Source: a virus. From it: a DNA stretch of 48,747 nt. Numbering within the stretch: position 1 is the first letter of the stretch; every line of letters starts with the position of its first letter. The position numbers were made by a program, and so were the translations under genes. The notes below the pieces were generated by a model that did no database searches, was not told where the DNA came from, and saw nothing but the letters and a program-made list of their open reading frames with translations. Positions 913-48,747 of the stretch are shown here, piece by piece. The stretch spans positions 1 through 48,747 of the IMG/VR virus record IMGVR_UViG_3300035070_002886; one strand, 5' to 3'.

Positions 913-926
913 GTTTCGTTTCGATA
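913..926 (-). promoter_or_regulatory. Shared leader element TATCGAAACGAAAC, copy 1
   Basis: Five bases downstream of the -10 box on the minus strand is TATCGAAACGAAAC, with an internal CGAAA tandem. The identical 14-mer occurs at 27859-27872 at the same distance from another -10. It lies at or just after the expected transcription start, so it could be an operator or an RNA leader element. Confidence 0.6.
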
Positions 927-931
927 AAGCA

Positions 932-960
932 ATAATAGACATTTAATTAATCATCGTCAA
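932..960 (-). promoter_or_regulatory. Strong sigma70-type promoter for the early minus operon
   Basis: On the minus strand, TTGACG (960-955), a 17-base spacer, then TATTAT (937-932): close to consensus with ideal spacing. It drives the operon that runs from 887 across the join to 46206. Confidence 0.8.
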
Positions 961-24244: not shown

Positions 24245-24484
24245 TTAGTCTCCGCACAAGCATTTGGTTGATGGCTCGCAGTAGGCCTTAACCTTGCTTG
24301 ATGATTCCCACTGCCTGTTTGCTTTCTCTTCTGTCGAGAAGTAGGCAAAGTAATCATTACAACCGGAGCAGCACCAGTAGTTATAAATTTCAGATCGACC
24401 AAATGAAACATCAAGCTCAACATCGCTAGAGAAATCCACCTTTTTTGGTGGTGTTCCCATTCCAACCTTCCAAATTTTACCCAT
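24245..24484 (-). CDS. Small cysteine-rich hypothetical protein, 79 aa
   Basis: ATG at 24484, overlapping the upstream TGA, with AAGGAG upstream. Cysteines in YWCCSGC and in the C-terminal YCEPSTKCLCGD suggest a zinc site. No family is recognised. It is part of the same minus-strand operon. Confidence 0.55.
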   Translation of the reverse strand: MGKIWKVGMGTPPKKVDFSSDVELDVSFGRSEIYNYWCCSGCNDYFAYFSTEEKANRQWESSSKVKAYCEPSTKCLCGD

Positions 24485-24702
24485 CACTTACTCTCCTTCT
24501 TATAACTACCCTGACGGCGGTCAGCCACAAAAGGGACAAGCTTCCCGTCAATTTCAACTAGTAAGACTTTATCTTTCTTGGCGATGTAGTTACGCAGTGT
24601 GCCACGGTTAATACCAATCTTGAGCGCAGCTTGTGAAATGTTGCCACGAGTGCTAATTAACACTTCATCAATGGTGGTGGTTGGTGTGTCTGTAAATTTC
24701 AT
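24484..24702 (-). CDS. NinH/Fis-like helix-turn-helix protein
   Basis: 72 aa, first gene of the cassette. VLISTRGNISQAALKIGINR is a helix-turn-helix, continuing GTLRNYIAKKDK, then DGKLVPF. This is the layout of lambda NinH, a small Fis-like DNA-binding protein. It probably regulates the divergent promoters directly upstream (24732-24794) or acts as a nucleoid-type factor. Confidence 0.65.
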   Translation of the reverse strand: MKFTDTPTTTIDEVLISTRGNISQAALKIGINRGTLRNYIAKKDKVLLVEIDGKLVPFVADRRQGSYKKESK

Positions 24703-27760: not shown

Positions 27761-27782
27761 AAGAGGCTTCGGCCTCTTTTTT
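27761..27782 (+). terminator. Rho-independent terminator after the tape measure
   Basis: AAGAGGC-TTCG-GCCTCTT tetraloop hairpin (27761-27778) followed by TTTT. It isolates the accessory cassette at 27893 from the tail operon. Confidence 0.92.
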
Positions 27783-27824: not shown

Positions 27825-27853
27825 TAGACACAAGTCCAGCATATTGATACTAT
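27825..27853 (+). promoter_or_regulatory. Promoter of the small-protein cassette
   Basis: TAGACA (27825-27830), 17-base spacer, TACTAT (27848-27853). Five bases later comes the shared leader element, exactly as at the 932-960 promoter. Confidence 0.75.
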
Positions 27854-27858
27854 AGCTC

Positions 27859-27872
27859 TATCGAAACGAAAC
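27859..27872 (+). promoter_or_regulatory. Shared leader element TATCGAAACGAAAC, copy 2
   Basis: Identical to 913-926 (minus strand), with the same 5-base gap to the -10 and similar flanks (GCT in the gap, AC two bases after). The conserved register suggests a common regulator or RNA signal. Confidence 0.65.
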
Positions 27873-27892: not shown

Positions 27893-28099
27893 ATGGAAAT
27901 TATCAACAAAACATTCAAAATTCAAAAGCGCGACGAAATGGGCGTTGCAAAAAAAGTTTACACGGTTTTTGTTTACGCTGTTAATGATGCAGTTCGCTGC
28001 GTAAAGGTTGTAAATGGAAAGAAAACAGCAAAATGCGAAAACTTTTCAATTAATGATTTTAACTCTGGAATTCGACTGGGTTCGGTAGTGGAGGCTTAA
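27893..28099 (+). CDS. Hypothetical accessory protein, 68 aa
   Basis: First gene of the small-protein cassette, 20 bases after the leader element. Lys-rich, beta-strand-rich (FKIQKRDEMGVAKKVYTVFV). No family is recognised. It is followed at one base by a zinc-ribbon-like gene. The promoter type suggests early expression, unlike the surrounding tail genes. Confidence 0.6.
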   Translation: MEIINKTFKIQKRDEMGVAKKVYTVFVYAVNDAVRCVKVVNGKKTAKCENFSINDFNSGIRLGSVVEA

Positions 28100-39280: not shown

Positions 39281-39453
39281 CCCTCACCCTCCAAAACCAT
39301 ATTAATCTTAGCCACAAAAAACGCTGTACCATCGTAGGATTCGAGTTTATTTGAAGCCCTTACAAGCATTCGCTCAAGTTCAGCGATGCGATCGGCTTGT
39401 CGTCTACATAGAGCCCGTTTCTCTACGAGCTCACACATTTGGTTGTTTGTCAT
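39277..39453 (-). CDS. Small coiled-coil protein, 58 aa
   Basis: ATG at 39453 lies just at the end of the DenV-like gene. RALCRRQADRIAELERMLVR is a short coiled coil. It overlaps the next gene's GTG start by 4 bases. No function is suggested. Confidence 0.55.
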   Translation of the reverse strand: MTNNQMCELVEKRALCRRQADRIAELERMLVRASNKLESYDGTAFFVAKINMVLEGEG

Positions 39454-39842
39454 TATCGCGTCCCATTATCAATCATGCGTTGAACGTTCATATCAATGGC
39501 TGCTGCTGTCGGTACGTAATCACCCCACCATGCTAATGGAATGGAAGACTCAACATCATCGATTATGTTGTTGAACATTTCTAGGTTTGGTTTGTATCCA
39601 CGGTTAAGCATCTCACCACACAGCTCGGTGTATCGATTTACTAGATACTGAACGCGAGTAAAGAAGAACATAACGTGGCCAGCACCAAGAACATACTCAG
39701 AAGGCTGTTTAATGTCAGAAGGTGATTGACCCTTGTTAATGCGAGCTTTGATGAGTGTGAATGTGCGAGGTAATTCTTTCCACTCGCCGCCAAGTTCTTT
39801 TTGGTTTAGTTCGCTTGCTGGCACTACATTGATGCGTGTCAT
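39453..39842 (-). CDS. denV-like: Pyrimidine-dimer DNA glycosylase, T4 DenV-like
   Basis: 129 aa. It aligns by eye along its length with T4 endonuclease V: MTRINVVPASEL at the start, then EWKELPR, then YVLGAGHVMFFFTRVQYL, then WWGDYVPTAAAI. The catalytic Thr2 (free amino group after Met removal) and Glu23 are both present, as are Arg3 and Arg26. The enzyme flips bases and cuts at UV-induced cyclobutane dimers. First gene of its operon, with a near-consensus promoter. Confidence 0.92.
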   Translation of the reverse strand: MTRINVVPASELNQKELGGEWKELPRTFTLIKARINKGQSPSDIKQPSEYVLGAGHVMFFFTRVQYLVNRYTELCGEMLNRGYKPNLEMFNNIIDDVESSIPLAWWGDYVPTAAAIDMNVQRMIDNGTR

Positions 39843-39872
39843 TTTAATTTGTCCCGTTTGTTTTGATGATTC

Positions 39873-39901
39873 ATTATTGGCTTGTTATTGGTGGTTGTCA
39901 A
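39873..39901 (-). promoter_or_regulatory. Strong promoter of the DenV-like operon
   Basis: TTGACA (39901-39896), 17-base spacer, AATAAT (39878-39873) on the minus strand. Five bases later ATCAAAACAAAC (39867-39856) is a degenerate, one-base-shifted version of the leader element at 913 and 27859. Confidence 0.78.
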
Positions 39902-46205: not shown

Positions 46206-46637
46206 TTAAATAAACTTACCCAATTCCGGTGGCGTGTAGTGCTTGCCCTTGGTTATCTTGCCGTTAGCGTCAAACACTGGCTTGCCATCTTCGAATTTAG
46301 AGAAGTTAGATCGGTTAACTTCTGCAAGTGCGCCCTCTATGCCCATTCCTAGCATGTGACCAATACCGGTACTTGTGACTTGTTGATCAACCAAGGAGTC
46401 CAATAATTCCACTCGGTTAATCTCCGTCATGACATCCATAGCCACCTCCCCGCTTTCTTTGAAAAAGTCTGCAAGCTCGTGAGTGCTCTTGGCCCATAGC
46501 TTCATTGCTGGTCCCATAGCATCAAACATTTCTGCTACTTCTTCGATGTGCACGCCCATCTGGACGCACTTTTGCTTATCTGTCGGCTCTGGTATCGCTT
46601 GCTCAAACCATGCCTTTGTGTTTTTTAGTTCGTTCAT
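46206..46637 (-). CDS. MazG-like nucleotide pyrophosphohydrolase
   Basis: 143 aa. Helical all-alpha NTP-PPase pattern: HIEEVAEMFDAMG (EExxE-type metal site) and VELLDSLVDQQVTSTGIGHM (ExxD). The C-terminal tail VNRSNFSKFEDGKPVFDANG ending KGKHYTPPEL is typical of phage MazG-like proteins acting on dNTPs or ppGpp. It may adjust the nucleotide pool or host stringent state. Last gene of the early operon. Confidence 0.85.
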   Translation of the reverse strand: MNELKNTKAWFEQAIPEPTDKQKCVQMGVHIEEVAEMFDAMGPAMKLWAKSTHELADFFKESGEVAMDVMTEINRVELLDSLVDQQVTSTGIGHMLGMGIEGALAEVNRSNFSKFEDGKPVFDANGKITKGKHYTPPELGKFI

Positions 46638-47353: not shown

Positions 47354-47871
47354 TTATCCATCTCCAATTCTTCCCTATCACTCGGCAAACCCCAAGCGCC
47401 CACATTGTTAAACAGCGTCCAAGCCTCTTCTAGAGTTGGTGACTTCTCAGTATTAGCCACCCAGCCAGCGGTAATAAAATCAGGCGCTTTGCGTGATGCT
47501 TTGAACTCGTCGATCATATCCATATGGAAGTTAGCCGCCAAACCGCTAATCTCGTTATGCTTGCAAGGTGTGTTGATTTTTAACACTTCCTCGGTGATAT
47601 GGTGCTTGCCGTTAGACTCACGCGAAATGATGTAGCAAGTAATTACCCATTTCAACTCTGTACGACCTAGCAACTCTGCAAACTCACGGCCAATTCTGCA
47701 TGGCTCAAGTGTTTTAGTGGTGTATGGGATCACTGAGTTCATTGTTTGTGGCTCCCATAAAAACCACTTGGTACGCATTTGCTTTCGCACCTTCTCAAAC
47801 TGCAAGCGCATGAGTCGAGCGCGGGCTTTAGGTGGTACTTGTGCTGGTATGCGTGCGGTTGTTATTAGCAT
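47350..47871 (-). CDS. Hypothetical protein, 173 aa
   Basis: Basic N-terminal third (MLITTARIPAQVPPKARARL, then MRLQFEKVRKQMRTKW), acidic C-terminus. Mixed alpha/beta middle (LKWVITCYIISRESNGKHHI). No domain is recognised. It overlaps both neighbours by 1 to 4 bases in the early operon. Confidence 0.6.
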   Translation of the reverse strand: MLITTARIPAQVPPKARARLMRLQFEKVRKQMRTKWFLWEPQTMNSVIPYTTKTLEPCRIGREFAELLGRTELKWVITCYIISRESNGKHHITEEVLKINTPCKHNEISGLAANFHMDMIDEFKASRKAPDFITAGWVANTEKSPTLEEAWTLFNNVGAWGLPSDREELEMDK

Positions 47872-48266
47872 TATTCCTTACCCCCAATCAAACCTAAAAC
47901 CAAATCGCCAAACTCACTTTGTGCAGTATCACTGTCTAGCAGTTTCTGGCACATGTCTTTAATTCTAACTCTAAAGTCCACCACATACGCACGTGTAAGC
48001 TCCTCTCGCGCTTCTGGGTATTCTGTGAAGTAATCAGCCGCGTTAGTGTCTTTTACGCTACCTACCGTGTGCTGAAGCATGAAATTTAGGTGTTGAGTTG
48101 ATACGCCTAACTCTTTTGCTAAAACATGAACCTTGACCATGTGCGTGAATCGCTCTGGATCGATTTTGTTAACTTGCACCAAGTGTGCATCGTGTACGTC
48201 ATAAGCTCGCGCCACTTCTGATAGTGTTTTTGCGCCTAGCTGCTTTGCTATTTGTGATGGTTTCAT
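47871..48266 (-). CDS. Hypothetical helical, HTH-like protein, 131 aa
   Basis: MKPSQIAKQLGAKTLSEVAR, then AYDVHDAHLVQVNKIDPERF, looks like a helix-turn-helix, and a second one may lie at ELGVSTQHLNFML. The C-terminal half is acidic and helical. Possibly a regulator; no family is recognised. Confidence 0.58.
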   Translation of the reverse strand: MKPSQIAKQLGAKTLSEVARAYDVHDAHLVQVNKIDPERFTHMVKVHVLAKELGVSTQHLNFMLQHTVGSVKDTNAADYFTEYPEAREELTRAYVVDFRVRIKDMCQKLLDSDTAQSEFGDLVLGLIGGKE

Positions 48267-48499: not shown

Positions 48500-48711
48500 A
48501 TCCCCGCCTTACCTGTAACCTTATACTCATGCATTCGCATTCCGCGCTTGCTTTGTCTTGTGCTAATCTCCCACCCCTTACGGCGCAGACTCTTGATGTA
48601 GTTTTTCATTTGATAATATTCAATATCGAGTGTTGCGATTAACTCCTCACCCGGCACCCAATTTTTAGTAATTAAGTCTAAAAGATACGTGCTTTTACAT
48701 TGTCGCTTCAT
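48496..48711 (-). CDS. Double winged-helix DNA-binding protein, C-terminal part (gene split by the join)
   Basis: A 71-residue frame can be read from the ATG at 48711-48709, but that codon lies in the terminal repeat (equivalent to 41-39) and is internal to the longer gene starting at 239. The true product is the 137-residue fusion of both pieces. This half carries EELIATLDIEYYQMKNYIKS, a second helix-turn-helix-like unit, then a basic wing (STRQSKRGMRMHEYKV). Its stop overlaps the next gene's ATG by 4 bases, as in the rest of this operon. Confidence 0.75.
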   Translation of the reverse strand: MKRQCKSTYLLDLITKNWVPGEELIATLDIEYYQMKNYIKSLRRKGWEISTRQSKRGMRMHEYKVTGKAGI

Positions 48712-48747
48712 CGGTACTTGATGGTGCTTTGGCAGGTAGTAATGCCT
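48671..48747. repeat. 77-bp terminal direct repeat, right copy
   Basis: Exact second copy of bases 1-77. Removing one copy leaves a 48,670-bp circle. Confidence 0.95.

Follow-up and report, generated by a model that had tools for sequence, protein, structure and literature searches.

The DNA analysed here (the window) is a whole virus record of 48,747 bases, related to Vibrio phages MAG7, PS15B, 1.087.A and H188 and bounded by a 77-base direct terminal repeat at positions 1-77 and 48671-48747. Near its left end, a leftward promoter on the minus strand consists of a -35 box, TTGACG (955-960), and a -10 box, TATTAT (932-937), with a 17-base spacer in between. A five-base gap, TGCTT, leads from the -10 box (932) to the leader 14-mer TATCGAAACGAAAC (913-926, minus), in which transcription is predicted to start at the A at 925, with a conserved core at 925-916; this register comes from comparison with other phages. 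Within the conserved block before this promoter lies a terminator-like hairpin (1007-1025, minus), 3' of the upstream leftward operon. The first open reading frame (ORF) behind the leader (504-887, minus; 127 aa) belongs to phrog_32847, of unknown function, and an unrelated protein occupies this place in five of five relatives. Because the similarity to MAG7 continues over the record ends, the leftward operon that begins at 913 runs on there. The leftward gene set also includes a predicted transcriptional regulator and a nucleotide pyrophosphohydrolase (47871-48266 and 46206-46637, both minus).

The second copy is on the plus strand, between a tape-measure-like gene and a DNA-circularisation/baseplate hub gene. 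A terminator-like hairpin, AGAGGC-TTCG-GCCTCT followed by a T-run (27762-27777, read from the sequence), begins a terminator-promoter-leader cassette that is common to other phages. It is followed by a -35 box, TAGACA (27825-27830), a 17-base spacer, a -10 box, TACTAT (27848-27853), the gap AGCTC after 27853, and the same 14-mer TATCGAAACGAAAC (27859-27872), with a predicted start at the A at 27860. The first ORF after this copy (27893-28099, plus; 68 aa) has no family found. A third, degenerate copy precedes a denV-like pyrimidine dimer glycosylase gene (39453-39842, minus). Here the -35 box TTGACA (39896-39901), a 17-base spacer, the -10 box AATAAT (39873-39878) and the gap GAATC lead into ATCAAAACAAAC (39856-39867), all on the minus strand, and the A lies one base nearer the -10 box than in the pair.

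These coordinates agree with the preliminary description of this DNA, which had placed sigma70-type promoters at 960-932 (minus) and 27825-27853 (plus) with the same 14-mer five bases past each -10 box, GCT common to both gaps, AC common to the flanks, and a weaker form shifted by one base at the denV promoter. All three sites have the 17-base spacing that falls within the 16-18 bases expected of sigma70 promoters. The description had also supposed that the element switches on all accessory operons, which is broader than what the window holds: two sites plus the degenerate denV site, with no further site within one mismatch of the 14-mer in a scan of the whole window. Among 78 sigma70-like sites in the window, the leaders of the pair match at 14 of 14 positions, and the next best pairs at 9 of 14. 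With random window 14-mers, full agreement (14 of 14) came up in 8 of 200 trials, under a null in which identical or overlapping places could be drawn. This chance estimate from the window alone is suggestive, and the reality of the element is thus decided by relatives and by distant phages.

MAG7, PS15B-5, 1.087.A, H188 and an IMG/VR contig (L153) all carry the identical 14-mer at the 913 site, and the alignment shows that terminator, promoter and leader are almost invariant across the same five relatives. The first protein behind this site, by contrast with the constant front end, is unrelated in every pairing of the six phages (blastp, E 1e-3). The denV site has similarity in 41 records, five of which were aligned; the promoter is not present in one of these, 1222 g2, and the leaders of the other four read ATCGAAACGAAAC in PS15B-5, ATCAAAACGAAAC in 1.017.O, ATCGAAATGAAAC in 1.100.O and ATCAAAACAAAC in 1.087.A. 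These leaders make the third site a member of the same class. Conservation in relatives, which the preliminary description had made the test of its proposal, therefore stands for the 913 site (five of five aligned) and, with variation, for the denV site (four of five), but not for the 27.86-kb site in the closest relatives, since the 22 records with a match to it include none of MAG7, PS15B, 1.087.A and H188. The 27.86-kb element is found at the same place in the more distant 1.225.O and, whole or in part, elsewhere in phages of V. breoganii, V. lentus and V. cyclitrophicus and in Pectobacterium phage POP12. Eleven of the 22 records were inspected; nine carry the 14-mer, and two (L131, L132) only the terminator part. 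The first proteins at sites of this type form eight clusters among ten carriers, namely the window, eight Vibrio phages and POP12, the last scored from a neighbouring copy of the element. As judged from these alignments, promoter and leader are constant in the Vibrio phages and the first gene is swapped; the 913 and 27.86-kb sites are possibly hot spots for accessory or counter-defence genes.

Beyond these relatives, the pattern TANNAT-N5-TATCGAAACGAAAC (T form) was found at 30 IMG/VR places in 26 distinct contexts, and the form with C in place of the first T (C form) at 99 places in 47 groups at 85% identity. The largest C-form group comprises 44 of 103 contexts and has 46 to 152 bases in common with phi80, HK639 and others in the region of their leftward promoter. 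The spacing to the -10 box is specific: in IMG/VR, a gap of 3 gave no places, a gap of 7 (C form) none, and a gap of 8 three, two of which (contigs L005 and L046) show a -10-like hexamer at gap 5 as well; no place was found with a dinucleotide-matched scramble. For the 92 nonredundant 14-mer contexts among the matches listed, TANNNT stands at gap 5 in at least 11, and no other gap between 0 and 29 has it in more than 5. In KVP40, the core with up to one mismatch occurs six bases after a -10 box at 20 places, versus 0-4 at ten other gaps, and in RB16 the same register holds 9 places versus 0-3. When 178 exact copies were grouped at 75% identity, 64 groups resulted, 59 with an ATG shortly downstream; a -35 box matching at least four of six positions is present in 38 of the 64, relative to a background of 12.3%.

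To compare genomes, matches were counted against those of a reversed control. With up to three mismatches, the counts (match/control) in examples with several copies were 15/1 in KVP40, 15/0 in G011, 12/0 in RB16, 11/0 in PX29, 10/1 in G002, 9/2 in G001 and 8/0 in POP12, in a survey in which all 26 records matched and 24 had been picked for carrying the motif. With up to two mismatches, in 17 records, they were 27/1 in RB49, 27/5 in Aeh1, 9/1 in NBD2, 6/1 in Rtp, 4/1 in T1, 3/1 in MAG7, 3/0 in PS15B-5, 3/1 in 1.087.A, and 1/0 in each of H188, G315, N4 and P2; the jumbo phage G316 had 19 matches but 10 in the control. At this threshold there was no excess in T4 (4/4), T5 (1/5), lambda (0/0) or T7 (0/0). 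Eight of the 17 records (T1, T4, T5, T7, N4, P2, lambda and RB49) had been picked by name and not for the motif, and of these RB49 alone has a large excess, with a small one in T1. As most sampled phages came in via the motif or its site, the counts are not frequencies among all phages. A count of 664 records obtained at a permissive E of 10 was kept out of the evidence. The motif is common in some phage groups and absent in others. Its carriers span phages of Vibrio, Escherichia, Aeromonas, Pectobacterium, Enterobacter and Klebsiella, and KVP40, RB16, RB49 and Aeh1 have many copies, mostly on one strand. A promoter search blind to the leader found the core with up to two mismatches at 11 of 88 candidates in KVP40, 6 of 70 in RB16 and 1 of 16 in the window, numbers that are too loose for a fraction, the 27860 promoter itself having fallen outside the TTG filter of the search.

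The motif is rare in the searched host genomes. Among 295 genomes from the same order as an Escherichia genome, TANNAT-N5-YATCGAAACGA has 14 matches, versus 7 for its mirror, and thus there is no clear host regulon. A longer pattern was found at 15 places in a 257-Gb genome collection. Seven of these (L187, L189, L190, L191, L194-L196) are one Clostridia promoter, TTGACA-17-TATCAT-N5-TATCGAAACGAAAC with small variations, which lies on contigs of the Clostridia themselves, has the same register as in phages, and is seen to precede a conserved 113-aa protein at six of the seven places. Two are one Spirochaetes promoter, one is a phi80-type leader in an Escherichia genome, and one, in Enterobacterales (L198), is promoter-like; by eye, the remaining four (L188, L192, L199, L200) are without a clear -35 box. 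The element is mainly viral, but the Clostridia promoter hints at use by a chromosome as well.

The shape of the element was assessed by a leave-one-out calculation on 60 promoters from KVP40, RB16, RB49, Aeh1 and NBD2, a sample of near-consensus sites in which each core position was scored on sites picked by the other positions. The information is 1.31 bits at -1 and 1.15-1.79 bits from +1 to +8, followed by 0.68 at +9, 1.38 at +10, 0.53 at +11, 0.81 at +12 and 0.13 at +13; the A at +14 (0.83 bits) is taken as part of an A-rich leader. The conserved stretch thus extends from -1 to +10 of the predicted transcript, with little conservation left at +13. Because the -35 box is partly blurred by variable spacing, and because 34 of 89 motif sites in five genomes are without a -35 box of 4/6, the higher information of the core than of the -35 is not to be over-read. 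The distance from motif to start codon varies from 17 to 54 bases (13-60 were allowed in the search), whereas that to the -10 box is fixed. This fixed distance implies that the element acts at initiation or as an RNA 5' end. As a separate observation on the upstream side, the -35 box in RB16 (L220-L228) and KVP40 (L207-L219) often lies inside a terminator-like stem, the T-run of which is the spacer (GCCCCTTGC..AGGGGCTTTTGTTATATT); for the region from -42 to -13, a folding energy under -5 kcal/mol was obtained in 35 of the 89 motif promoters, a count that has no shuffle control.

The genes behind the motif are diverse. The 62 groups gave 53 first proteins (nine gave no ORF), which fall into 50 clusters, so that no single gene family explains the motif, and a tie to one family is ruled out. 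Few of the 53 first ORFs behind nonredundant copies match a family of named function. They match 36 PHROGs families, and the named ones, among the 25 of 36 listed, are two DNA methyltransferase families, a DNA invertase, an integrase and PagP, with one member each; seven Pfam families and three PADLOC methyltransferase models, the latter also with one member each, were matched as well.

Based on these comparisons, our preferred reading, held with modest confidence, is that the 14-mer is an initial-transcribed-sequence element of a class of phage sigma70 promoters, one that is probably adapted to promoter escape. The predicted RNA start is the A of (C/T)ATCGAAACGA. The core, which is about as long as the first RNA-DNA hybrid, would act while the host RNA polymerase makes the first ten nucleotides, favoring productive escape over abortive cycling, so that the promoters would fire strongly and early in infection. 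The A/C-rich, little-structured rest of the leader would then expose the ribosome-binding site. In the Vibrio phages, the terminator-promoter-leader block stays constant and different small accessory genes are exchanged behind it. In the window, early and strong expression would apply to denV, to the leftward operon of small genes and to the genes inserted in the tail module. The preliminary description had taken these promoters to be separate from late genes, which finds support in KVP40, RB16, RB49 and Aeh1, where the core is present at none of 35 late-type TATAAATA sites that have a start codon behind them.

We favor promoter escape because of precedent. The initial transcribed sequence shifts promoter output more than 10-fold, and purine-rich sequences favor productive RNA; that of T7 A1, starting ATCGAGAGG, gives easy escape (PMC12464699, PMC10911233). 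The initial transcribed sequences of T7 A1 and T5 N25 are likewise purine-rich, belong to early sigma70 phage promoters and occupy the same place (+1 to about +20), and a downstream sequence region of strong phage promoters has been described (Kammerer 1986, as cited in PMC10911233). The present element has the position of an initial transcribed sequence, with a fixed distance to the -10 box and a predicted RNA start, and ATCGAAACGAAAC has 9 purines among 13 bases, in keeping with the purine-rich character of efficient ones. The core also contains C-G steps at +3/+4 and +8/+9, and these count against escape, since pyrimidine-G steps are linked to initiation pauses, an effect that matters mainly at low NTP (PMC10911233). 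The lack of excess in T4, lambda, T7 and T5 implies in addition that a strong early promoter can do without the element. The annotated starts of T7 A1 (ATCGAGAGGG) and A3 (ATGAAACGAC) are similar to the motif and that of A2 (GCTAGG) is dissimilar; each T7 promoter has its own sequence, whereas here one 10-base core recurs in unrelated phages in one register.

A wider interpretation, which we put forward only tentatively, is that (C/T)ATCGAAACGA at -1 to +10 is an unrecognised promoter element that unrelated phages have reached repeatedly, and that either a site of the host RNA polymerase reads it while the first bases are transcribed or it is read as a 5' mark that early phage RNA carries. Since hosts hardly use the motif, the advantage would in this case be phage-specific and tied to takeover, and the element would be a tag for early accessory genes.

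The preliminary description had deduced from the fixed register either a regulator or an RNA 5' signal. The part that stands is a signal tied to the RNA start, and a signal acting in the RNA itself, whereby the mRNA 5' end AUCGAAACGA matters, for example for decay resistance or for the loading of ribosomes or an RNA chaperone, is the alternative to promoter escape that best survives, though we consider it rather unlikely. A fixed register fixes the RNA 5' end as well, 89 transcripts are, over their first 40 bases, less folded than dinucleotide shuffles of them (mean difference +0.76 kcal/mol), and the window leaders, of 33 and 38 bases, fold to only -0.7 and 0.0 kcal/mol. Strong conservation, however, stops at about +10, and an unstructured leader alone needs no exact sequence; the absence of the core from the late-type sites likewise speaks against an RNA signal. 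Pairing with rRNA was rejected, as complements to E. coli 16S (6 bases) and 23S rRNA (7) and to one tRNA (5) do not surpass what shuffled 13-mers give, and E. coli 5S rRNA has no complement of 5 or more bases. A known structured RNA was rejected too, because no Rfam family reaches gathering scores in the window or in four carrier loci.

It is quite improbable that the motif is a mere product of descent and recombination, i.e., a short homologous joint, functionless by itself, that spread with early promoters. Up to about 160 bases around the motif are indeed common to otherwise different Vibrio phages, and the gene behind it changes, with six unrelated proteins in six phages at the 913 site and eight clusters among ten carriers at the other. 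But the T1-like, phi80-like and T4-like carriers differ upstream and by eye share only about -10 to +13; past +12, the bases vary among the 89 sites with up to two mismatches of the core in five genomes, sites that were core-selected; and the Clostridia have the motif behind the promoter of a gene family on contigs of their own.

Least of all do we credit an operator, at which one phage or host DNA-binding regulator would recognise the 14-mer and switch the promoters together: several identical copies in one genome speak for it, and a repressor could well act from a site over the start, but the element is common to phages of six host genera, operators do not require an exact distance to the -10 box, no host regulon is apparent, and the two helix-turn-helix candidates searched, the protein encoded at 24484-24702 and the 39976 protein, are found in only 5 and 3 of 19 carrier records, each from the phage group to which the window itself belongs, and not in the other 14 and 16. 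Both candidates were rejected as the shared regulator, and the single dedicated regulator of the preliminary description is unlikely.

Returning to the initial-transcribed-sequence reading, three known systems bear on its novelty. Early promoters of the T4-like phages RB49, RB43 and Aeh1 have been compiled (Nolan 2006, PMC1524935), and RB49 and Aeh1, like KVP40 and RB16, carry multiple copies of the motif; the accessible text of that study describes the -35 and -10 boxes, an A-rich -40 region and preferences at -3 to -1, and does not mention a post-start motif. The start-associated sequences of cluster K mycobacteriophages (PMC3203893) are likewise short repeats before many unrelated genes and rare in the host. 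As described in the accessible part of that paper, they read GGGATAGGAGCCC, stand beside the start codon and pair in part with 16S rRNA; the present motif, in contrast, is fixed to the -10 box and not to the start codon or Shine-Dalgarno sequence, and its rRNA pairing is not beyond chance. Lastly, among the leftward promoters of the lambdoid phages phi80 and HK639, the predicted transcript of phi80 pL starts with ATCGAAACGAAAC, adjoining the annotated O-L region. This group has operator-like repeats and a longer leader, which in HK639 is annotated as putL-like RNA, whereas neither operator-like repeats nor a longer leader is seen at the window promoters, whose leaders have almost no structure. 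Searches of open-licence full text turned up no description of the motif, which may be in print in the RB49 or KVP40 genome papers; a match to its letters in the accessible text of a T5 paper (PMC7472727) is a primer. What is known, then, is that the initial transcribed sequences of phage promoters matter; what is new is one core that recurs across unrelated phages.

Control of transcription by the initial bases is known from single promoters, and which sequence is naturally preferred is unsettled; the ten-base core, common to phages of several families, would be a natural answer, and one that is directly testable in purified transcription. The motif may also be a practical marker of candidate early genes, and in the Vibrio phages it exposes sites at which accessory genes are swapped behind a constant promoter.

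Some further observations were made along the way. Other leaders recur as well, namely CACTCAACGCCTAAC, twice in KVP40, and CGTAGACAA, three times in RB16, and these may mark other promoter classes. The record MG592531.1 (Vibrio phage 1.164.O) annotates a CRISPR_spacer_1 within a region resembling the replication genes of the window. In the IMG/VR contig L049 (1236-1300), GAAAC is repeated about ten times after a normal start of the motif.
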